DNA of 64,000 nucleotides from positions 226,275-290,274 of IMG/VR virus record IMGVR_UViG_3300032287_004484. One strand, given 5' to 3'. This stretch comes from a virus. The notes beneath the pieces were generated by a model. The model saw only the letters and a list, made by a program, of their open reading frames with translations. It was not told where the DNA came from and did no database searches. This document shows positions 1,487-64,000 of this stretch, piece by piece. A program made the translations under genes and the position numbers. The number at the start of each line of letters is the position of its first letter. Within the stretch, counting starts at the first letter, position 1.

Positions 1487-2150
1487 CATTTAAAAAGTAT
1501 TTTTTAAATCCATTACATATTTTACTAACGTGTTTTTTATTATTTATCCAATTTCTTTTTAAATTTAATTCTTTATGACTATCAAAAGTATCAGATATTG
1601 AACATATAAAATCATCACGTTGTATTTGTTTTATAGATCCATCCTTTACTTCACAAGTATAAATAGGATAATAATCTTCTTCTGAATGTATCTCTTGACT
1701 TAGTAATTGTAAAGTGAAGTTTAAAAATGAAAATTCAAATGCTATTAATTTTAAATCTTCTTCAACCTCTTCAATTTTTGGCCATTTTCCAATGTTATAA
1801 TTATTACAAAAAATCTTTCCATCCCAATTACACCATCCATGTAATCCACCAACCCAAGACGAAGAAATTCTATCATTATGTAGATAACTTAATTCTAATC
1901 GTTGTATTTTATCTTCTATAATATCATAGTCTATAGGTATATGTGATATCCTATCTTCTATTGGAAATGAAGAAACATATATTTTATGTAATTCATCATA
2001 CAAGAGACTATTTTTTGATATATCATATTCTAATAAATACCAACGCTGTGTCCTTATTAAAATTTCAGATGCTTGTTCTTCTGAAATGCTTTCTCCAGTA
2101 ACTAATAGTCCTGGCCATTTTGGCCATCCTTCATTTTTTTGTTGAATCAT
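1479..2150 (-). CDS. conserved phage/bacterial protein of unknown function, 223 aa
   Basis: Begins MIQQKNEGWPKWPGLLVTGE and contains S-W-V-G-G-L-H-G-W-C-N-W-D-G and NYNIGKWP motifs. I recognise these as hallmarks of a widespread phage and bacterial family without assigned function. The protein is soluble, with no signal peptide. Its start lies inside the 3' end of the upstream membrane-protein gene (20-nt overlap), so translation is probably coupled. Confidence 0.75.
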   Translation of the reverse strand: MIQQKNEGWPKWPGLLVTGESISEEQASEILIRTQRWYLLEYDISKNSLLYDELHKIYVSSFPIEDRISHIPIDYDIIEDKIQRLELSYLHNDRISSSWVGGLHGWCNWDGKIFCNNYNIGKWPKIEEVEEDLKLIAFEFSFLNFTLQLLSQEIHSEEDYYPIYTCEVKDGSIKQIQRDDFICSISDTFDSHKELNLKRNWINNKKHVSKICNGFKKYFLNVT

Positions 2151-2394
2151 ATTTTTTTTCTTTTATTTTTTGAGAAATTTTTTTAAGAAATTTAAACCAT
2201 CTAAAAAAAAGATAACCAATAAGAAAAAATGGATAAAATAGTATAAAAAGCGGTATTTCATCTTCATGATATATTATGTTATATTTATTATCGTTTATAT
2301 TTTCATAAATATAAATTAAAGATGCAAATAAAAAACCAATAATTAGATATATGCCTAATCCTAATAAAAAACTTATTAAACTTTCTGAATTCAT
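2131..2394 (-). CDS. small membrane protein, 87 aa
   Basis: The start was placed at the internal ATG at 2394, because GGGAG lies 9 nt upstream and the stop of the preceding gene overlaps as TAATG. The protein has two hydrophobic segments (about residues 5-30 and 50-70) followed by a lysine-rich tail. It forms a coupled pair with the gene at 2394-2846. No recognised family. Confidence 0.7.
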   Translation of the reverse strand: MNSESLISFLLGLGIYLIIGFLFASLIYIYENINDNKYNIIYHEDEIPLFILFYPFFLIGYLFFRWFKFLKKISQKIKEKKYDSTKK

Positions 2395-2846
2395 TAAAAA
2401 ATTCTCCCTATTAATTTGATAAAGATTATTCCTGAACTTGTTCCAATACCAGCACCTAAACAATAAGAAATTCTTTCTCCCCAAGATGCTATTGTAATTC
2501 TTCTAATATTAAAAGTCCAAACTAAAGATAATAAAAAGCCACATACTCCAGCTTGAATCACCATTTCTTTAGAAATAAGAATTGTATTTACAGAAACAAA
2601 AAATATTTGTAATAATGATGATAAAAAAATACTAACTAAATGTTGTTTGTTTTTAATAAATCTAAATAATGCTATTAAAAAAAATAAAGGGTAAAGAAAA
2701 ACAATAATAAAAAAAAACATTACTTCAACAAATTTAAATTCATTTACTAAAGAATCATATTGTTGATTTTCTTTAGGTTTAAATATTAACCAAATGAAAT
2801 AAAATATTGCTCCTAGTGTAATGTAATAAATAAGGTATTCTTTCAT
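2394..2846 (-). CDS. multi-pass membrane protein, 150 aa
   Basis: About five hydrophobic segments. Near residues 115-137 it has RRITIASWGERISYCLGAGIG, a glycine-rich motif similar to ITI-x-SW-x-ER segments I have seen in phage membrane proteins of unknown role. Its ATG overlaps the stop of the gp47 gene (ATGA), so it belongs to the gp47 operon. What it does there is not apparent. Confidence 0.6.
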   Translation of the reverse strand: MKEYLIYYITLGAIFYFIWLIFKPKENQQYDSLVNEFKFVEVMFFFIIVFLYPLFFLIALFRFIKNKQHLVSIFLSSLLQIFFVSVNTILISKEMVIQAGVCGFLLSLVWTFNIRRITIASWGERISYCLGAGIGTSSGIIFIKLIGRIF

Positions 2847-3856
2847 AATTCTAAATATCCTAATAGTTCTTTTTTATCAATTTCAAAATTATTATCATTA
2901 ACATATGATTTTAATATATCTTCTGGATTAGAAGAAACTATTGTTTCCCAATCTTTTGCAACAGCTATTTTTTGATTACTTTTTGAAAGATCCCATTCAA
3001 AAAATACATCAAAATTATTTTTTAATAATTTCTCTCTATATTGTATTAATAATGAACTGTCTAGATTTTTTCTTATTATCAATTTTATAAAACTATTACT
3101 TAGTGAATTAATATATGTCATGTTAGAGTTTTTTAGTTCGACTGATATAAATTTAGGTGAATTAAGATTAGGTACAAATTCAATCTCATCTTTATCAGTA
3201 TTATAAAAAGTCCATCCATGATCTCCTTCGTCGCCAAAATGAGATTCATAAGGTGATGAAACATAAGTCATAGATCCTTTATTTTGAAAACTATGATAGT
3301 GTCCACTAAATACTTTATAAAAATCGTTCCCAAGACAATTAATATCTAACTCAGAATAAACATCTTCATGGCCATTATCTAAATTAAAGCCTTTTAAACC
3401 TAAATGAGTACAAAGAATATTCTTTTTATCTTTATCATAATTTACTTCCTTTAATTTATTAATAATTACTTCATCATTAAAGTAGGGTAAAAAATGAAAT
3501 CTAAAATCACTAGAATCAAAAAACCCGTAATCGTCAAAAAAATTACAGGAACTACTAAATATCGAAAGTCCATTAATCTTTGCATCTCCTTTGGAAAGTA
3601 TATCATGATTACCTGGAATCATATAAGTTGGAAACTTATTCATGATTTTTCTTAAAGAAAGAAGCGCTTCGTGTTGTGCCTCTATAGCAACGATATCTTT
3701 TAAATGAAATACATCACCTAAAATAAAAACATAATCAACTTTTCTTTCTATACAAATATCATAAAAATCATCTATAGATTTTATAATATGTTTTAAAAAA
3801 TTATTATTTTTTTTGTAAATCTTAATATGAAGATCACTAATAAATCCAATTACCAT
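2843..3856 (-). CDS. gp47: gp47-like recombination endonuclease subunit (SbcD/Mre11 type)
   Basis: This 337-residue calcineurin-like phosphoesterase is the nuclease partner of gp46. Metal-binding motifs are present in order: SDLHIK (residues 7-12), LGDVFH (about 46-51), GNHD (about 82-85), CTHLG, and GHYHS (about 186-190). A smaller C-terminal region follows. The start is ATG at 3856, only 6 nt after a perfect TATAAT with TTAAAC 18 bp further upstream, so the mRNA appears leaderless. Length fits T4 gp47. In T4, gp46/47 makes 3' single strands for UvsX, also encoded here. Confidence 0.93.
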   Translation of the reverse strand: MVIGFISDLHIKIYKKNNNFLKHIIKSIDDFYDICIERKVDYVFILGDVFHLKDIVAIEAQHEALLSLRKIMNKFPTYMIPGNHDILSKGDAKINGLSIFSSSCNFFDDYGFFDSSDFRFHFLPYFNDEVIINKLKEVNYDKDKKNILCTHLGLKGFNLDNGHEDVYSELDINCLGNDFYKVFSGHYHSFQNKGSMTYVSSPYESHFGDEGDHGWTFYNTDKDEIEFVPNLNSPKFISVELKNSNMTYINSLSNSFIKLIIRKNLDSSLLIQYREKLLKNNFDVFFEWDLSKSNQKIAVAKDWETIVSSNPEDILKSYVNDNNFEIDKKELLGYLEL

Positions 3857-3862
3857 ATATAA

Positions 3863-3892
3863 ATTATATAATATGAATTTATTAATGTTTAA
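3863..3892 (-). promoter_or_regulatory. promoter of the gp47 operon (leaderless)
   Basis: TTAAAC, 18-bp spacer, TATAAT on the minus strand; 6 nt separate the -10 from the gp47 ATG. Confidence 0.75.
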
Positions 3893-3914
3893 AAATTAAT
3901 TAATTTCAGTGTTA

Positions 3915-5033
3915 TTACTTATTTATTTTATTTATATAAACTTCATTTTTACCACTGCTCTTAATAAATGGAGCAACATATCTTAGGATTATTCTTTGTA
4001 CTGACTCAAATTTATTTATTTTATCATCATATTTAGGATACATTTTAGAAAGGTCTAATTGATTTTTTCTAGAAAATCCTGGTAAATTTTGCTGATCAGA
4101 ATACTTATAAAAGAAATCTTTTGAATTTTCATAAGCATCTTCGATTAATTCATCAATCATCCCTGGAAAATCAACATCTTTATTATCTGGAAAATTCTTC
4201 TTTGGAAATAATTTTAAAAAAGTATCGTATCCTTTAAAAGTATCTCTAAATTGTTTCCAAGTTATATCAGGATCTTTTTTTGTCCAATCATCTTTTTTTA
4301 ATCCATAAATAGATTTTTTTATATTATTTAAAATAACAGTTATATTTTTTTTATCACTATAACTTTTTGGTGTAGAAATAAAATTAGTTTGTATTGCTTG
4401 TAATTCTTTAAACATTTCAATTGGATCATATCCATAAGAATAATCAAAATCACCAAAAGTATCTTCATTGTCAAATTTATTAACTGAATTAATTTCAGAC
4501 ATAGCATGAAAAATATAATCGTGAAATAAACTATTAAATAAACCTTCTACGTTTTTATATGAATTTTGATATGTACTATATTTTTCAATAGTAAATTTTT
4601 CACTAATTTCAAAAGATAATTTTTCAAAACTCATTTTTTTTAAAATATCATTATCTTTAATAAAAGCAACAATTTTATTTTTTATTTCATCCCTAAATGA
4701 ATAATTTGGTTTTTTTAAAATATCATCTAAATTTATATTTAAATCTGATTTTAAAAAATGTTCAAATATAATTTGTAATTTTTGATATATTTTATACATT
4801 TCTTCATCTTTAGAAAAAACAAAAGCTTGCAATTGTAGATCATATATATTTTGATCAGAAATATTATTTTTTTTAAAAAACTCTTTAGCAATAGAAGTTA
4901 CATATTTAATTATACAAAAAAGATCAATATAATCAAATAAATTTTGTTTAATATCTAATTGTAAATCAAAATCATATAATTCTTTTATTTTTTCATCTAT
5001 TACTGCTTCAAAATAATTTATTAGTTTCATCAT
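3915..5033 (-). CDS. putative capsid-targeted internal protein, 372 aa, paralogue of the 510-aa protein at 60584
   Basis: The N-terminus MKLINYFEAVIDE fits the capsid-targeting-peptide pattern seen in eight other proteins here, with I-D-E a candidate prohead-protease site. The C-terminal third (T-W-K-x-F-R-x-x-F-x-x-Y, then F-x-K-K-x-x-x-D) matches the C-terminal part of the protein at 60584-62116, so the two are paralogues. The middle is helical and acidic. There are two consecutive ATGs; the second (5030) is better spaced from AGGA. An ATCATAAAAATA motif lies 14 nt upstream. Function unknown; likely a virion protein. Confidence 0.55.
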   Translation of the reverse strand: MMKLINYFEAVIDEKIKELYDFDLQLDIKQNLFDYIDLFCIIKYVTSIAKEFFKKNNISDQNIYDLQLQAFVFSKDEEMYKIYQKLQIIFEHFLKSDLNINLDDILKKPNYSFRDEIKNKIVAFIKDNDILKKMSFEKLSFEISEKFTIEKYSTYQNSYKNVEGLFNSLFHDYIFHAMSEINSVNKFDNEDTFGDFDYSYGYDPIEMFKELQAIQTNFISTPKSYSDKKNITVILNNIKKSIYGLKKDDWTKKDPDITWKQFRDTFKGYDTFLKLFPKKNFPDNKDVDFPGMIDELIEDAYENSKDFFYKYSDQQNLPGFSRKNQLDLSKMYPKYDDKINKFESVQRIILRYVAPFIKSSGKNEVYINKINK

Positions 5034-5046
5034 TATATCCTAATAA

Positions 5047-5058
5047 TATTTTTATGAT
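5047..5058 (-). promoter_or_regulatory. candidate late-type promoter motif ATCATAAAAATA
   Basis: The same motif precedes four other capsid-targeted-like genes (34118, 40857, 44887, 60584) and resembles the T4 late -10 TATAAATA. No -35 partner is seen. Confidence 0.4.
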
Positions 5059-5085
5059 CTTTTTTTATTACTATTTAAAAAAATC

Positions 5086-5114
5086 ATAAACATTGTATAA
5101 ACATCTTGTATAAA
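5086..5114 (+). promoter_or_regulatory. promoter with conserved leader (copy A)
   Basis: ATAAAC, 17-bp spacer, TATAAA. The promoter and about 45 nt of downstream leader are nearly repeated at 43647-43715 on the other strand (shared elements TAAACATCTTG, CTGAAGGT and TACTGATTA). Confidence 0.55.
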
Positions 5115-5179
5115 ATTACACTGAAGGTGAAGAAGAAAATTAGTACTGATTAGTTATATAAACCAAAAAATAAATTGAT

Positions 5180-5581
5180 ATGGAAAAAAAAGAAAAACAA
5201 AAAAAATTAAATATCTTAATCTTAAGTTTTTATAAAATTTTAAAACTTTCTTCTGATGATCAATTATTTTTACCATTAGAAGATGTTAAAGAAATTAATG
5301 ATGAAATGCGTGATAATTTAATGATGAAATTTTTAAATAATTATAACATAAATAAAAATTATTTATCAGATGATTTTTTTAAATATTTTATGAATAAAAA
5401 TTTATTAGATAATATTGATGATATGAATTATTTAGATTTTAATATTAAGGATAAAAGAATAGAAAAACTTTATAATAATTTTATACAGGATTTTAGTTTT
5501 TTTAAATATAAAAATAATGTTAAAGTATCAAATGATAAAAAGTTTTTAGCAGAATTAGAAAGAATAAGAAATTTACCTTAG
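5180..5581 (+). CDS. hypothetical protein, 133 aa
   Basis: A lysine- and asparagine-rich, probably helical protein with no signal peptide or membrane segment. No Shine-Dalgarno is evident before ATG 5180. The transcript should carry the roughly 60-nt conserved leader noted for the upstream promoter. No family recognised. It precedes the Cas4-like gene, which has its own promoter. Confidence 0.6.
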   Translation: MEKKEKQKKLNILILSFYKILKLSSDDQLFLPLEDVKEINDEMRDNLMMKFLNNYNINKNYLSDDFFKYFMNKNLLDNIDDMNYLDFNIKDKRIEKLYNNFIQDFSFFKYKNNVKVSNDKKFLAELERIRNLP

Positions 5582-57281: not shown

Positions 57282-58175
57282 ATGAATAAATATAACTATA
57301 AATACGATCACATAATAAAAATTGATGACCAAATTTTAAAAGAAGATTTTTACGAAATTGTAAGAAAGCATAAAGTTAATAGAAAAAGAGATTTAAATTT
57401 AGAGGAAAGAATTTTAAAGAGTCAAAATCCTTTATTAGCTGTTTTCTATGCTAGAGAAGTTGTAATGGATAGATGGATAGAAGGCGAAGATATAATTTTT
57501 AACTTTCCTTCTGATCAATCTATTTATTTTTATTTAACTTTTTTGATAGAAAATAAAGTTAGAGATCTTGAAGATTTATTTCCAAAATTAGAAAAATGTA
57601 TGGTAGAGTTTAAGGATTTTATGGCTATTAGATATTATATCTCTAGTGTAATTAAAAGAAGATGGAAAGAAGGTGAAGACGCTATTATTGAATGTAAATC
57701 TCTTAACGATATTAATTGGTATTCTAAATATTATATTAAAGGTAGATGGAAAGAGGGAGAACAAGTTTTTTTAGAAGAAATAACAAATATAAACTTTTCT
57801 AGCCATTTGCACTTCCACCTTGTTTACCAATTATCTTATTATATAGATAAAATCGCTAAATGTAAAATTGACGATATTGATAAAGAGATTATTAAAAATA
57901 TGAAATATTTTTGCGAGAAATATCCTCATGTAAATATTTTTAGATATATAAATGGAGCACATCCAAAAGGTTGGGAAGAAGCAGAAGAGTTTATTGTTCT
58001 TGATGCTAACCTTAGTGTTATGTATGCAATGAAAATTATAAAAAGACCTTTTGTAAAAGCACATCAAAATATCTTTAGTTCTAAAACAGATAAAAGAATT
58101 ATAAATCGCTATACAAATTTTCTCAATAAATTAAGTAAAAAGAAAACAGTAAACTTCTCAGAGTTCTTAATTTAA
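57282..58175 (+). CDS. largest YA-repeat protein, 297 aa
   Basis: No strong Shine-Dalgarno (ATAGGATAAA). Six or seven repeats, among them F-Y-A-R-E-V-V-M-D-R-W-I-E-G-E-D, Y-Y-I-S-S-V-I-K-R-R-W-K-E-G-E-D and W-Y-S-K-Y-Y-I-K-G-R-W-K-E-G-E; capped V-K-A-H-Q-N-I-F. Ends F-S-E-F-L-I. Some repeats are degenerate (residues 170-220). Confidence 0.65.
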   Translation: MNKYNYKYDHIIKIDDQILKEDFYEIVRKHKVNRKRDLNLEERILKSQNPLLAVFYAREVVMDRWIEGEDIIFNFPSDQSIYFYLTFLIENKVRDLEDLFPKLEKCMVEFKDFMAIRYYISSVIKRRWKEGEDAIIECKSLNDINWYSKYYIKGRWKEGEQVFLEEITNINFSSHLHFHLVYQLSYYIDKIAKCKIDDIDKEIIKNMKYFCEKYPHVNIFRYINGAHPKGWEEAEEFIVLDANLSVMYAMKIIKRPFVKAHQNIFSSKTDKRIINRYTNFLNKLSKKKTVNFSEFLI

Positions 58176-58177
58176 AA

Positions 58178-58708
58178 ATGAAAACTTTATATTTATTAGA
58201 AAATAAAAAGATAAAAGAGAAATATAATAATTTTCTAATTAAAAATAATGTTTTTTATTCTTATCAATATTATCTTGGATCAGGAGATGAAGGAGACGCT
58301 TTTATGGTTTCTGATTCTGAAATAAGAGGAGTTATAAAATTAACAACTAGAAGATTAGAATATAAGATTTCTAAAAAATTAATTAAGAATCAATATCTTA
58401 ATCTTTGTACAGTATATGATTGTAATATTTTAAGTCCTAATGAATTATATGTTATTTATAAAAAGTTTTATTTTGTTAATTCTATAACATCTGATTTAGT
58501 TGATTTTGCTTTAAAAAATAAAGATTTAAATAATTTTGGACTTATTGGTTTTGAATTAAAAAAGATTAAAAGTCAATTAAAAGAATTTGGATTAAGTGAT
58601 GGAGGTGATTTATGGGGTGGTAATGTAGGATGGGATAAAAATAAATTAGTTCACTTTGATATAGATGAAACTGTTTATGGAACGTATAAAGAAAGTTTTT
58701 TAGAATAA
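58178..58708 (+). CDS. protein-kinase-fold-like protein, 176 aa
   Basis: L-G-S-G-D-E-G-D-A-F (about residues 33-42) resembles a kinase glycine loop, followed by G-V-I-K-L-T (ATP lysine about 58). Near the C-terminus G-D-L-W-G-G-N-V-G has the D-x4-N of a kinase/APH catalytic loop, and H-F-D-I-D stands where DFG/DFD would be. Short for a kinase, so a minimal or degenerate one; activity is inference. No ribosome site; 2 nt after the YA-repeat gene. Confidence 0.55.
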   Translation: MKTLYLLENKKIKEKYNNFLIKNNVFYSYQYYLGSGDEGDAFMVSDSEIRGVIKLTTRRLEYKISKKLIKNQYLNLCTVYDCNILSPNELYVIYKKFYFVNSITSDLVDFALKNKDLNNFGLIGFELKKIKSQLKEFGLSDGGDLWGGNVGWDKNKLVHFDIDETVYGTYKESFLE

Positions 58709-58734
58709 ACACTTTTATATTTTGTATATATATT
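58705..58734 (+). promoter_or_regulatory. promoter
   Basis: ATAAAC, 18-bp spacer, TATATT; AAAGGAAT before ATG 58754. Confidence 0.6.
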
Positions 58735-58753
58735 ATATATAAAGGAATATTAA

Positions 58754-58945
58754 ATGACAAAAAAAGAAGCAACTAGAATTTTAAACATTAGATTAGAAGC
58801 TCTTAATGAAGCAATTAAAAGAAAGGCAATTAAAACTGATATTACTGGTAAAATAATTGATCAATCAGTTTTTGATTACCTTAATGAATTAGAGGAAAGA
58901 AGAAAAGCACCTCCAATAAATTGGATTAAAAGAAATGAATTTTAA
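58754..58945 (+). CDS. small excisionase/MerR-like HTH protein, 63 aa
   Basis: T-K-K-E-A-T-R-I-L-N-I-R-L-E-A-L-N-E-A-I-K-R-K-A-I is a winged-helix opening, then a wing and E-L-E-E-R-R-K. Tandem paralogue of 58962. Candidate regulator of the downstream operon, which includes the split helicase. Confidence 0.6.
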   Translation: MTKKEATRILNIRLEALNEAIKRKAIKTDITGKIIDQSVFDYLNELEERRKAPPINWIKRNEF

Positions 58946-58961
58946 AAGGATAAAAAAATAA

Positions 58962-59180
58962 ATGGAAACAACAATAGAAAAACAAACAATAACTAAAAAA
59001 GAGGCATGTGATATTTTACAAATTAAAAAACACACATTAAATAATCTTATTAAAAGTAAAATAATATCTTCTTTTAACGAAGAAGTTATTTTTTCTTCTG
59101 TTTTTAAATATAAAAAAGAATTAGAAGAAAGAAGATCAATTAACAAACCAATGTGGATAAATAGAGGCGGATATGGTTGA
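58962..59180 (+). CDS. small excisionase/MerR-like HTH protein, 72 aa
   Basis: I-T-K-K-E-A-C-D-I-L-Q-I-K-K-H-T-L-N-N-L-I is the HTH; E-L-E-E-R-R and a W-I-N-R end align with 58754. Overlaps the next gene by 8 nt. Confidence 0.6.
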   Translation: METTIEKQTITKKEACDILQIKKHTLNNLIKSKIISSFNEEVIFSSVFKYKKELEERRSINKPMWINRGGYG

Positions 59181-59508
59181 ATCTAAAAAAGAAACTTACT
59201 TATATATGGGAATATCGTTAGATAAATTTTCTAATGATCCAACAGATAAAATTTCCATGATAGACTTTTATAATTCTTTTAATCAACAAATATATTCTCA
59301 TTGTTCTACAAGTTTTAAAAATAAAGAAAGATTCACGTTTCAAAAACTTGGAGATAACTTTACTTTTGAAGAATGGAGAACTGGACATGATATTATTATT
59401 CCTATTACAAAAGAAAAATTTGATATGATAAAACAGATTAACATTCTTAATCATAAAAGTTTAAAAAAGTTTTTAAGATCGTTTAGTTTTGAGGAGTACA
59501 TTATATAA
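59173..59508 (+). CDS. small protein with FEEYII tail, 111 aa
   Basis: GAGGCGGAT before the ATG. Y-L-Y-M-G-I-S strand, internal F-E-E-W-R and end F-S-F-E-E-Y-I-I encoded by GAGGAG, which serves the helicase start one base after its stop. Confidence 0.55.
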   Translation: MVESKKETYLYMGISLDKFSNDPTDKISMIDFYNSFNQQIYSHCSTSFKNKERFTFQKLGDNFTFEEWRTGHDIIIPITKEKFDMIKQINILNHKSLKKFLRSFSFEEYII

Positions 59509-60018
59509 ATGATAAAAATATTAATTGCTAATACACATTCTAAAATAGATTTTGAATCAGTCGATAAATCAGAAAAGAAAGAATTTATTAAAATGCTGAA
59601 AGAAAAATTTACAGTTAGAAATCCATCGCTAGAAAGAAACCCTATGGTAATAAGAGGACTAATGAGTGCTGATCATTGTTTTTACGACGTTGAAAACTCT
59701 ATTCTTCCAACTGGTTTAGTTCCACATCTTAGAATTTATTCTAAACAAAATAATTTTCAAATTGAAATTAAAGACTTTAGAAAATTTCCAAAACAAAACC
59801 AAAACATATTAGATGGGATCAACGATAAACAAATTAAAATGGGAATTCACGAAGCAAGGGATTACCAAATAGATGCTCTAGCTGATTTAGTTAAATATCG
59901 TGGAGGAATAATGGAGGGAGGAACTGGAATGGGTAAATGTCTTGGTAAATCAACAGAGATTGAAATAGAAGTTGATGATGACTTTTATTCATTTCTAATA
60001 AAACATAATTTTATATGA
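59509..60018 (+). CDS. uvsW-N: UvsW helicase N-terminal part fused to a 26-residue N-intein
   Basis: Residues 1-143 are the UvsW N-terminal domain plus the start of the helicase core: H-E-A-R-D-Y-Q-I-D-A (Q-like motif, about 114-123) and Walker A G-G-T-G-M-G-K, ending at K143. C144 then begins C-L-G-K-S-T-E-I-E-I, an intein block A, and the gene stops 26 residues later. The rest of helicase and intein is encoded at 62158. Protein trans-splicing would restore G-T-G-M-G-K-T. GAGGAG start site; the stop overlaps the next ATG. Confidence 0.88.
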   Translation: MIKILIANTHSKIDFESVDKSEKKEFIKMLKEKFTVRNPSLERNPMVIRGLMSADHCFYDVENSILPTGLVPHLRIYSKQNNFQIEIKDFRKFPKQNQNILDGINDKQIKMGIHEARDYQIDALADLVKYRGGIMEGGTGMGKCLGKSTEIEIEVDDDFYSFLIKHNFI

Positions 60019-60215
60019 AAAATCAATATACAATAGAATATGATAAGATGATTAAAAATTACCAAGTCAGTTGTGTAGGAAAATTTAACTTTAGTGCATC
60101 GCTAGGATATTTAAAAAATCTTGATAACCAAAGCATGTGGAAAGAAAAAAAATTAGAATATTATTTTGAACTTCTTGATTGGGTAGAAAAAGAACACCCA
60201 GAGTTATTAATATGA
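60015..60215 (+). CDS. NHPELL-family small protein, 66 aa (between the helicase halves)
   Basis: Y-T-I-E-Y-D start and K-E-H-P-E-L-L-I end match 8955-9158. ATGA-coupled to the N-intein gene. No nuclease motif. Confidence 0.55.
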   Translation: MKNQYTIEYDKMIKNYQVSCVGKFNFSASLGYLKNLDNQSMWKEKKLEYYFELLDWVEKEHPELLI

Positions 60216-60550
60216 ATGATTCAGAATGGGATGAAATGATTGCTTGGTGTCCAACACAATTAAGTAAAAGAGTTTATGTCGAAGGAATAGAGTTAATTCT
60301 TTATTTAAGATGGAGATGGAATGATCCGTTCACTTATAACATTTATATTGAAGAAGATAAAAAAGAATTAGAAGAACTTCTAAAAATAGGGATGTTTCAT
60401 TATGATTTATTTAATAAGTATAATCGTTGGTATTCACAAAAAGATTTTGATAAAGATAAAATAGAAAGGGATGCAGAAGATATTTGGTATAACTTCGAGA
60501 AGTCAAGGATAGAAAAAATTTTAAAAGATAATCCGCATTTAATAATTTAA
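60212..60550 (+). CDS. hypothetical protein, 112 aa (between the helicase halves)
   Basis: Start at ATG 60212 (ATGA overlap). W-D-E-M-I-A-W-C-P-T-Q-L, L-R-W-R-W-N-D-P; ends D-N-P-H-L-I-I. Acidic, helical; not a homing endonuclease. Confidence 0.55.
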   Translation: MNDSEWDEMIAWCPTQLSKRVYVEGIELILYLRWRWNDPFTYNIYIEEDKKELEELLKIGMFHYDLFNKYNRWYSQKDFDKDKIERDAEDIWYNFEKSRIEKILKDNPHLII

Positions 60551-60567
60551 AGAATTTTTATTTTTAA

Positions 60568-60580
60568 ATCATAAAAATAA
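60568..60580 (+). promoter_or_regulatory. candidate late-type motif ATCATAAAAATAA
   Basis: Ends 3 nt before ATG 60584; if it acts as a -10, transcription would start about at the ATG. Confidence 0.45.
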
Positions 60581-60583
60581 ATT

Positions 60584-62116
60584 ATGAAATTTATTGAAAA
60601 ATTAAATCTTCTTGTTGAAGGTATAGGTTCAACGATTAATTTTAATTCCACTCAAATTGGTCTTAATATAGGAAAAGATGATTCATTTTTAAATTTTATT
60701 GATAATGCTTATTTAATGAAACAGATAAAATTTTTTATTAACGAAGAGATAGATAGATTTAATAAAATTTTTCCTAACAATAAAAAACAAAAAATTAAAA
60801 TTGAATTTAATCAAACGAAGGAAAAAAATGAATCGTTAGAAATGGTTGAAAAATTTATAGAAGACGATAAAAATGATAAAGCAGCGCTTCACAATTTTAA
60901 AATAAAATATATTAATCATATAGTAGAATGGTTTAAGGATGATAAAAATTTAAATAAAGATTATAAAAAGCATTTTGAAAAAGAATTACAAAATTCTAAT
61001 TTTTGGGCCTTTTTTAAAAGTGAAAGAGGCGAACTTTATTTAAGCGATGTAACTACGCTTAATAATATCAATGCAGAAATAATTCATGATTTAGTTTTAC
61101 ATCTTTTTGCTAATCAAGAAGATATGTTTTATTTTTCAATAAGTGATAATGGATATGGATTTAATGATCCTAGCGGTTATTCACCAGAAAGTTTATTAAA
61201 TGAACTATATGCTTTACAGTCTGATCATATGATTTTTTATTATAGTTATGAAGTTCAAAAACCTTTTATAGACGTTTTTTATAAAGATCTTTCTGAGATT
61301 CAATCAAAAAATCAATTAGAAACAGTTCTTAATTTCTTTAAAGATGAAAAAATAAAATATTTAATACAAAGACAGTTATTTAATGAAAAAGTTGTTTACG
61401 GAAAACTCTTAATTGATATTTTTTCAGTTGTTGAAAAACATAAACAATATTTTCAAAACTCATATTCTTTTTTACAAAAACATAAAGATTCTCAAGGTAA
61501 AATAGTTAATTTTAAAAGATATAGTTATCCATTTATTCAAAACGTTATTTCTTCAATTCAAAAACGTCAAAGTAAAATTCCAACGTGGAAAGATTTTAGA
61601 ACATACTTTAACGATTACCCAGCAATACAAATATTATTTAAAAAAGATAAATATCTAGATGATAAAAAAATTAGTGATCATCCTGAACTTAATGATATTA
61701 ATCAAATATTTTATAAAGCATTAGATTCTGGTCAAAGCTTAATGAAAACAAGTTCTACATCTGGTAATACTAAAAGAAAAGAAGAGATAGTAGAACTTCC
61801 TAATTTTTTAAAGAGGATGAGAGGTAAAAGTAAAAACGACATTGAAGCAGCTATGTTGAAAATACCAGATAAAGAAAAAAGAGAAAGATTATTTAAAAAA
61901 TATATTCAATTTCAAAAATATACTAATCAATATGAAATAGGTCAAATAGGAAAACAATTAGTTGGTAAAAAAGAAGTTTATAATTTTCAAAATACAATAG
62001 ATGTTATATTAGATAAAATTTTTAAATTAGTTAGAAGCAATAAATTTACTAATAATAAAATTTATTATGATATGATAGAGAAAAAAATAAAAATAGAAAA
62101 GGAAAATAATCCTTAA
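60584..62116 (+). CDS. putative capsid-targeted protein, 510 aa (between the helicase halves)
   Basis: MKFIEKLNLLVEGIG carries the targeting pattern with L-V-E12. The C-terminal half (T-W-K-D-F-R-T-Y-F-N-D-Y...F-K-K-D-K) is homologous to 3915-5033. No Shine-Dalgarno; preceded by the late-type motif. A probable late virion gene inserted between two early helicase gene parts. Confidence 0.55.
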   Translation: MKFIEKLNLLVEGIGSTINFNSTQIGLNIGKDDSFLNFIDNAYLMKQIKFFINEEIDRFNKIFPNNKKQKIKIEFNQTKEKNESLEMVEKFIEDDKNDKAALHNFKIKYINHIVEWFKDDKNLNKDYKKHFEKELQNSNFWAFFKSERGELYLSDVTTLNNINAEIIHDLVLHLFANQEDMFYFSISDNGYGFNDPSGYSPESLLNELYALQSDHMIFYYSYEVQKPFIDVFYKDLSEIQSKNQLETVLNFFKDEKIKYLIQRQLFNEKVVYGKLLIDIFSVVEKHKQYFQNSYSFLQKHKDSQGKIVNFKRYSYPFIQNVISSIQKRQSKIPTWKDFRTYFNDYPAIQILFKKDKYLDDKKISDHPELNDINQIFYKALDSGQSLMKTSSTSGNTKRKEEIVELPNFLKRMRGKSKNDIEAAMLKIPDKEKRERLFKKYIQFQKYTNQYEIGQIGKQLVGKKEVYNFQNTIDVILDKIFKLVRSNKFTNNKIYYDMIEKKIKIEKENNP

Positions 62117-62122
62117 TATTGT

Positions 62123-62152
62123 TTAAACATATAGTTATAGTTGAAATATAAT
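62123..62152 (+). promoter_or_regulatory. promoter of the C-intein/UvsW gene (leaderless)
   Basis: TTAAAC, 18-bp spacer, TATAAT; 5 nt to ATG 62158. Confidence 0.75.
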
Positions 62153-62157
62153 TATAT

Positions 62158-63675
62158 ATGAAAAAGGTAAAAATTAAAATAGGTAAACTATTTGAAGCTA
62201 TTGAAAAATATGAAAAACATAACTTTTATACAGATGAAGAATATTATCCAAAAACAGAAATTAAATTAAAAGATAAAAATGGTGATTTTCAAAAAGTTCC
62301 AGCACTAATAAAAAAACGAGATCAAATCTTAAAAATTGTATTACAAAATAAAGATCTTCTTAAGGTAGGTACAAATCATATTATTTGTACCCAAAATTGG
62401 GAAGAAAAAAAATGTAAAGATTTAAACCTAAAAGATAAACTCATTAAAAACAATGCAAGTCTAGTTGGCATAGAAAGCATAAAACTAGAAGATGAAGAAG
62501 ATGTATTTGATCTTCAAATAGATAGTGAGGATCACTTATATTCTGATGCCAAAGGATATGTTCACCACAATACTTTTATTATGTCTATGGCGTGTAGTCT
62601 TTATAATACATCTAAAATTTTAGTTCTTTTTAATCGTACAGAACTTCTTTTTCAAACACGAGAAAAATTTGTTAAAGAGTATGGATTCAAAGAAGATGAA
62701 GTTGGTATAATTGGTGGCGGATCTTATGATGATTCGTGTAGAATAACACTTCTAACAACACAAAGTTATCAAAATATCTTTCATCTTTTTCCAGATATAA
62801 AAGTTATTATTACTGATGAGTGTCACGAAACTGGTAGAACGTCAACAGCAGAGAAGATTATTTATTCTTGTCAAAGCGCTTCTATTAAAATAGGTTTGTC
62901 AGCAACTGTATCAGTAATTGAAAATCCTTACGAAAAAATGAAATTACATGGTAACATAGGTCCAATCATACATAAGGTACCATACGATAAATTACGTGAT
63001 ATGGGAACACTAGCAACAGTATCAGTAACTATGTATAAAATAGGTGTTATAAATTCTATACCAATAATTGGATCTTGGAATGATGTTTATGAAACAATAA
63101 AAATTAAAAAACCAGAAGATATAGAGATTTATGAAAAATTAAATTATGAAATCGTTAAAGAAGGTAATAACATAAGTGCTAGAAAATTTATTTGTTATGG
63201 TGATGAAAGCAATTTATATATTTATAATTCCACTAGAAATGAACTCATTGCTAAAATAGCATCGCAAAAAGAAAGAGTTCTTATCCTATTCACTAAGTTA
63301 GCACATGGAAGAGAATTATTAAAACTTATTCCACATGGCATTTTAATTAGTGGTGATGATGATCGTTACGCTCGTGAACAAGCTAAACAAAAAATAAAAG
63401 ATGATCTAAACACAGTAATTATTGCGAGTTCTATTTTTGATGTCGGAGTAGATATACCAGCAATTAAAACACTTATCCTAGCTGGTAGTTCTGTAAGTAA
63501 TGTTAGAGTCATGCAAAAGATAGGTAGAGCAACTAGAAAAGATTTAAACACTCTTAAAGAAGACGCTGAAATAATTGATTTCATGCAATATGATAATCCT
63601 TTATCTTTAAAGCAAAGTAAAAAAAGAAAGAAGATATACGAAAATTTATTAAAGGTTCCTGTAACTTTAATATAA
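62158..63675 (+). CDS. uvsW-C: 138-residue C-intein fused to UvsW helicase C-terminal part
   Basis: Residues 1-138 are a C-intein: block B-like G-T-N-H-I-I-C-T (71-78), block F V-F-D-L-Q-I...H-L-Y-S-D, block G Y-V-H-H-N (134-138), then T139 as the +1 nucleophile. The C-extein (367 aa) has V-L-F-N-R-T, D-E-C-H-E-T (motif II), G-L-S-A-T (III) and Q-K-I-G-R-A-T-R (VI). 143 + 367 = 510 residues, against 503 in T4 UvsW. UvsW remodels forks and R-loops. Leaderless start under its own promoter. Confidence 0.92.
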   Translation: MKKVKIKIGKLFEAIEKYEKHNFYTDEEYYPKTEIKLKDKNGDFQKVPALIKKRDQILKIVLQNKDLLKVGTNHIICTQNWEEKKCKDLNLKDKLIKNNASLVGIESIKLEDEEDVFDLQIDSEDHLYSDAKGYVHHNTFIMSMACSLYNTSKILVLFNRTELLFQTREKFVKEYGFKEDEVGIIGGGSYDDSCRITLLTTQSYQNIFHLFPDIKVIITDECHETGRTSTAEKIIYSCQSASIKIGLSATVSVIENPYEKMKLHGNIGPIIHKVPYDKLRDMGTLATVSVTMYKIGVINSIPIIGSWNDVYETIKIKKPEDIEIYEKLNYEIVKEGNNISARKFICYGDESNLYIYNSTRNELIAKIASQKERVLILFTKLAHGRELLKLIPHGILISGDDDRYAREQAKQKIKDDLNTVIIASSIFDVGVDIPAIKTLILAGSSVSNVRVMQKIGRATRKDLNTLKEDAEIIDFMQYDNPLSLKQSKKRKKIYENLLKVPVTLI

Positions 63676-63691
63676 GGTTTAATTTTTGGGT

Positions 63692-63721
63692 TAATACATC
63701 TAATTAATTCTATATTACAAT
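63692..63721 (+). promoter_or_regulatory. GGG-box promoter
   Basis: TTTTTGGG then TAATAC, 18-bp spacer, TACAAT; drives 63755. Confidence 0.55.
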
Positions 63722-63754
63722 ACTATTATAGAAATTTAATTAGGAGCAGATACT

Positions 63755-64000
63755 ATGTTCGATACAAAAGAATATAAAAAACAATACTATGAAGAAAATA
63801 AGGATAACTTAAAAAAATATCAAAAACAATATTATAAAAAAAATAAAGAACAAAGTAAACAATACTATGAAGAAAATAAGGATAAGATTAAAAAATACTA
63901 TGAAGAAAACAAGGATAAGATTAAAATTTTCTATGAAGAAAATAAGGATAACTTAAAAAAATATCAAAAACAATATCGTGAAGAAAATAAGGATAAAATA
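63755..64000 (+). CDS. repetitive Tyr/Glu/Lys/Asn protein, 5' part only
   Basis: TAGGAGCAG before ATG 63755. Repeats of Y-Y-E-E-N-K-D-K-I-K-K run to the window edge (82 codons visible), with matching DNA repeats of AAGAAAATAAGGATAA. I recall such Y-Y-E-x-N-K-E repeats as N-terminal parts of phage proteins, some with an HNH domain behind; the rest is out of view. Confidence 0.6.
   Translation, partial: MFDTKEYKKQYYEENKDNLKKYQKQYYKKNKEQSKQYYEENKDKIKKYYEENKDKIKIFYEENKDNLKKYQKQYREENKDKI

Follow-up and report, generated by a model that had tools for sequence, protein, structure and literature searches.

A bacterial virus UvsW-type helicase encoded in two genes, with pieces of a short-N split intein at its ATP-binding loop

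How could a bacterial virus obtain a working helicase when the gene for it has been cut exactly through the ATP-binding loop? This question is raised by a UvsW-type DNA helicase that is encoded as two separate genes in the window, the whole analysed stretch of 64,000 bases from IMG/VR record IMGVR_UViG_3300032287_004484. As read from the sequence, the answer is very probably trans-splicing: a short-N intein placed between the Walker A Lys and Thr of this fractured UvsW/XPB-type helicase would restore the P-loop.

Two genes for one helicase

Both halves lie on the + strand and are separated by 2139 bases, a gap of 2.1 kb that contains three ORFs. The features of the locus, in window coordinates, are listed below; relatives-only profiles are described in the following section, and a slash in a motif marks a splice junction or insertion point.

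59509..60018, + strand: helicase N-half gene, 169 aa (143 helicase + 26 intein); phrog_16 DNA helicase, E = 6.5e-13
59509..59937, + strand: N-extein, 143 codons, ending in the Walker A residues G-T-G-M-G-K; gapless alignment to phage UvsW through GKT
59938..60015, + strand: N-intein, 26 codons, CLGKSTEIEIEVDDDFYSFLIKHNFI, with Cys1, strands and an extra helix; relatives-only N-intein profile
60015..60215, + strand: first gap ORF, 66 aa; no significant match to a Pfam, PHROGs or NCBIfam family
60212..60550, + strand: second gap ORF, 112 aa, with a TTG at 60179 as alternative start; no significant match to a Pfam, PHROGs or NCBIfam family
60584..62116, + strand: ORF of 510 aa between the halves, not recognisable as a homing endonuclease; no family in Pfam, PHROGs or NCBIfam
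62158..63675, + strand: helicase C-half gene, 505 aa (138 intein + 367 helicase)
62158..62571, + strand: C-intein, 138 codons, ending V-H-H-N; relatives-only profile, PF14890, AlphaFold2 (AF2), Foldseek
62368..62379, + strand: block B (N3) G-T-N-H, its His being C-intein residue 74, family-invariant in the alignments
62563..62574, + strand: C-splice junction H-H-N/T, with penultimate His, terminal Asn and nucleophile Thr+1
62572..63672, + strand: C-extein, 367 codons, the remainder of helicase domain 1 (DECH box) and helicase domain 2; ResIII 3.5e-13, Helicase_C 2.3e-7, phrog_16 9.5e-45

The preliminary description of this DNA had stated that the first gene ends in GTGMGK followed by a 26-residue intein piece and a stop, and that the second opens with a 138-residue C-intein ending in VHHN and resumes with TFIMSM. 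Both statements can be read directly in the sequence. The first codon of the N-intein is TGT at 59938-59940 and the stop of the N-half gene occupies 60016-60018; the C-extein starts with ACT at 62572-62574, and the Thr+1 nucleophile thus encoded doubles as the Walker A Thr. The rejoined helicase has the claimed length of 510 aa (143 + 367).

When the halves were rejoined, the E-value for ResIII improved from 3.5e-13 to 6.7e-21 and that for phrog_16 (DNA helicase) from 9.5e-45 to 4.2e-59. The junction GTGMGK/TFIM aligned without gaps with uninterrupted phage helicases, inside the GxGK[TS] motif, so that precise removal of the intein restores a conserved host protein. The two-domain SF2 core is present, with Walker A, DECH box and Helicase_C, and the rejoined protein matched the DNA helicases phrog_16, phrog_14619 and phrog_16259. 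Its earlier designation as T4 UvsW-like holds in that the protein groups with phage UvsW proteins, including in the N-terminal region, but among solved structures the sequence match to XPBII (2e-20) was ahead of that to T4 UvsW (2.8e-15), and the exact wording is therefore UvsW/XPB-type SF2 helicase. In the helicase tree, the window protein was placed with phage G gp400, BUCTxx99 and a Staphylococcus phage (97/97), apart from the intein-bearing UvsW clade (98/97), which tentatively suggests, on long branches, that it comes from a different UvsW lineage than that clade.

A complete uvsW elsewhere in the genome, which would have refuted the preliminary description by its own terms, was not found across the 290,274-base record, itself possibly incomplete. 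A block-A/block-G motif scan over the same record found no second intein; we discarded a weak PF14890 match at record positions 187478-187927, which falls within an unrelated K-rich ORF. Among viral contigs, no close relative of the window's uvsW was found by searches with the C-half and the rejoined helicase or with the pattern HHNTFIM, whose eight matches were all judged to be chance. Beyond the C-half gene, the window contains the start of an ORF rich in lysine and glutamate, with a tandem repeat of 33 bases (63755-64000); this ORF runs off the contig end.

None of the three ORFs in the gap was related to a helicase, an intein or a known nuclease, which bears out the earlier statement that unrelated genes lie between the halves. 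The ATG of the 66-aa ORF overlaps the N-half stop as ATGA, and this ORF has two weak paralogues within the same genome; the 510-aa ORF had zero matches among 50,697 phage records. A Vsr-like endonuclease profile made from related fractures had no match in the window's gap. Dassa et al. 2009 reportedly described fractured genes in which split inteins are accompanied by free-standing homing endonucleases. Like these, the window has two co-directional halves carrying split-intein pieces, but it lacks a recognisable endonuclease gene between them: its gap holds the three unrelated ORFs, whereas the relatives described below have a Vsr-like gene. Elsewhere in the record (G000:C1:94788-95321, - strand), a 177-aa Vsr-like nuclease ORF shows weak likeness (4e-5) to the relatives' endonucleases.

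Intein evidence and split position

Relatives-only profiles were built from related inteins without the window sequences and searched against 1349 ORFs. With the C-intein profile, the window C-intein was recovered over its full length as the best of the 1349 (E = 7.7e-24; next, 0.25), and the window N-intein was likewise the best match to the N-intein profile (E = 7.6e-5; next, 0.018). Because both ORFs rank first in this way, scores rise on rejoining and the junction is gapless, the two halves are not a chance pairing. The search against public intein profiles, proposed at the outset, gave a divided result: Pfam PF14890 (Intein_splicing) matched the C-fragment with an E-value of 2e-4, but its 21.6 bits fell below the curated cut-off of 35.8, as did those of NCBIfam TIGR01445 (11.6 against 24.5). 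These scores look like a limit of the models, since PF14890 gives only weak matches to the family members too (10 of 11, best 1.1e-6); a curated Pfam or NCBIfam cut-off is a convenience and not a biological requirement for an intein.

The catalytic set is intact in the window and comprises Cys1, block-B His74, block-F Asp118 and His126, His137, Asn138 and Thr+1. The same residues are conserved across an alignment of 18 sequences, with a Tyr at the block-F His of L099 as the one exception; overall identity of the window intein to its relatives is only 21-33%. AF2 modelled the window C-intein alone with a pLDDT of 92.0 and a pTM of 0.80, and the 50 PDB matches listed by Foldseek for this model were inteins and intein-like domains, with inteins on top; a Hint fold is predicted. 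For the contiguous intein of the relative L083, the AF2 model had a pLDDT of 93.6 and a target-normalised TM of 0.81 to VidaL, and VidaL was also the best PDB match of the family profile (5.2e-12), followed by gp41-1. Simple charge complementarity between N- and C-inteins was not seen, both being near neutral or negative. The relatives-only profiles, the residue conservation over 18 sequences, the fold prediction with its Foldseek matches and the same-site fractures found elsewhere uphold the initial proposal of a short-N split intein exactly at GK/T.

Natural short-N split inteins have N-inteins of 15-37 aa and are split either after beta2 (S1; VidaL, 16 aa, and PolB16, 15 aa) or after alpha1 (S2; AceL-TerL, 25 aa, and GOS-TerL) (PMC13014065). 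The window N-intein, with 26 aa and its own stop in a separate gene, falls within this range. In the AF2 model, alpha1 (H8-19) is part of the window C-intein, and the split therefore lies before alpha1 and is not S2. In the L083 model, the early strands are separated from the next strand by an additional helix (17-29) and a loop (30-38) of poor order; by alignment, the split alleles break within this loop. The window split is on the S1 side, not directly after beta2, with the extra helix (H17-29 in the L083 model; DDDFYSFLIKHN in the window N-intein) following that strand. On these models, the window N-intein is S1-like with a helical extension.

The two likenesses drawn in the preliminary description fared differently. 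That to VidaL (PDB 6vgv; 16-aa N-intein, S1) stands: like the window intein, VidaL is split on the N side of alpha1 and is cysteine-dependent, and it is the best PDB match of the family profile in sequence. It differs in that the window N-intein reaches 26 aa owing to the extra helix after beta2 and in that the window host is a UvsW-type helicase. The likeness to AceL-TerL extends, as for GOS-TerL, to the short N-intein, the long C-intein and the phage gene, but these two inteins are split after alpha1 and hosted by the terminase large subunit (PMC13014065), whereas in the window alpha1 belongs to the C-intein and the host is a helicase.

Related fractures in viral contigs

Relatives were found in viral contigs via degenerate DNA patterns for a P-loop followed by Cys-Leu. 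Sixteen other UvsW-type N-halves end in a short N-intein of 25-49 aa at the same GK/T site (L084, L090, L099, L104, L110, L120, L123, L126, L128, L129, L135, L137, L143, L146, L148 and L150). A C-half was seen for 15 of the 16, those of L090 and L104 being taken from the longer stretches L177 and L176, respectively; the exception, L129, is located at a contig end. The near-duplicates L120/L128 and L090/L110, and the one contiguous intein shared by L083 and L094, leave fewer independent lineages than these counts. The window intein is thus one of a recurring short-N UvsW split type and not a singleton. The same type was found in five TerL genes, with the full arrangement in L052 and L074 and N-halves also in L108, L112 and L138. 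The major capsid gene of L074 (415-5268), intact in L052, is in three pieces with two ORF-bearing insertions, perhaps introns.

In most relatives, a gene of ~335 aa with a Vsr-like nuclease motif (PF18741, 4e-4, below cut-off) lies between the halves and overlaps or abuts both. Other contents were a different ORF in L126, HNH-like by eye, and a short remnant in L148; in L110 and L177, the uvsW halves overlap and the endonuclease gene is absent between them. At this UvsW site, L083 and L094 have a contiguous mini-intein of 171 aa, which is nested among the split alleles (99/94) and apparently represents a split intein that closed again after loss of the endonuclease gene. Contiguous inteins also occur in the helicases of L065 (UvsW-like) and L039 (RadD-like), where they look full-size with an endonuclease domain. 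The insertion point of all three kinds (L083, L065 and L039) is identical to that of the window, where the intein is split.

In the intein tree, the window intein grouped with UvsW inteins and not with those of TerL or clamp-loader genes (92/82, support not strong). Identity to the window is mostly 28-31% for the inteins and 22-27% for the host helicases. Because the inteins are slightly more alike than their hosts and the host tree is discordant, past horizontal spread of the intein is suggested, although not proved.

Several further arrangements were observed. In L176 (2217-5633, reverse-strand coordinates), L150 and L084, uvsW is in three pieces, the C-part being broken again at the DE/CH box, apparently by a split intein of the conventional type (in L176, with an N-part of about 110 aa and a C-part of about 35 aa, ...VVSN/CHMAKAD); these genes look as if they held two different split inteins within one uvsW. 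In the cultured, T4-like Vibrio phage vB_VmeM-32 (L188; KU160494.1), a short-N split intein apparently fractures a gp41-type helicase (region 2047-5122), whose halves are separated by an endonuclease-like gene of 378 aa and whose C-half (...VIHHN/TGKSLGL) is unannotated; the UvsX gene, too, is split, its parts flanking a SegG-like gene (region 1-1712). This phage is a possible laboratory system. In the 484-kb uncultured phage L015 (LR756508.1), a clamp-loader-type ATPase carries a contiguous mini-intein at GK/T and a DNA polymerase-like ORF carries another intein (regions 3824-5218 and 568-2433), and a RecA/UvsX-like ORF of Salicola phage SCTP-2 (L189, 3186-5171) has two contiguous inteins, the first VidaL-like by eye.

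Splicing, alternatives and meaning

In the proposed mechanism, the 26-aa N-intein (beta1-beta2 and the extra helix) would dock on the 138-aa C-intein to complete the Hint fold. Cys1 would attack at the N-junction, Thr+1 would accept the N-extein, and Asn138 of the C-intein would cyclise, joining the exteins as GTGMGK-T with the P-loop restored. From these features we infer both trans-splicing and a dependence of helicase activity on it. A working helicase would most likely exist only once both proteins have been made and joined, and it is reasonable to suppose that neither half binds ATP alone. The locus may descend from an old event of homing that targeted the conserved P-loop; this old fracture would since have lost the endonuclease gene usual between the halves, and other phage ORFs would now occupy the gap.

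The undetectable endonuclease would also suit a decayed intein, in which the halves no longer splice after a long-past fracture and the helicase is either lost or functions through non-covalent pairing of two subunits. Phage enzymes that function in two unspliced pieces are known (PMC2988022), and the split NrdA of Aeh1 works in this non-covalent way. For the window, we consider decay quite unlikely: all catalytic residues are intact and both reading frames are open despite the age of the lineage, and if the fragments associated without being ligated, the P-loop would stay broken between Lys and Thr and the fragments would keep tails of 26 and 138 residues.

An error of assembly, with two genomes or rearranged pieces joined and a true locus that is contiguous or has the usual endonuclease gene, could be suspected, as about 325 bases separate the C-half from the contig end, a tandem repeat (63824-63960) lies beside it and the gap genes differ from those of the relatives. 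It is highly improbable in view of the matching split-intein pieces in which both halves end, whose own start and stop codons fall where they do in independent relatives; all genes moreover run in one direction, and the N-half stop is overlapped by the first ORF of the gap (ATGA). An interruption at the RNA level, such as a group I intron with ORFs, is scarcely credible here. Introns and homing endonucleases are frequent in T4-like phages (PMC2988022), but no Rfam match was obtained in 58000-64000, and this reading is contradicted by the protein-level evidence, with Hint features on both sides of the gap and a fold that is an intein fold. Trans-splicing remains the preferred reading. A further proposal is that the fracture outlived its endonuclease and was kept, its halves now sharing a block with other phage genes. 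P-loop trans-splicing, at an uncharacterised split position on the S1 side with an N-intein helix, would then form a two-gene switch on a helicase that remodels DNA, one that might depend on redox state or timing; we regard this proposal as rather doubtful.

Short-N split inteins and fractured phage genes are already known kinds; no UvsW fracture was described in the parts of the open-access literature covered by our search. Short-N split inteins are rare and are valued in protein semisynthesis, since chemical synthesis of a ~25-aa peptide is feasible, and the window intein looks like a new member of this technologically useful kind. UvsW-type helicases in such phages are at risk of being mis-annotated as truncated proteins. 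Together with its relatives, the window locus forms a family with N-inteins of 25-49 aa, one host gene and one site, which covers split, gene-overlapping, apparently re-fused and three-piece forms. With this range of forms, the origin of gene fractures, the loss of their endonuclease and their occasional re-closure become testable.
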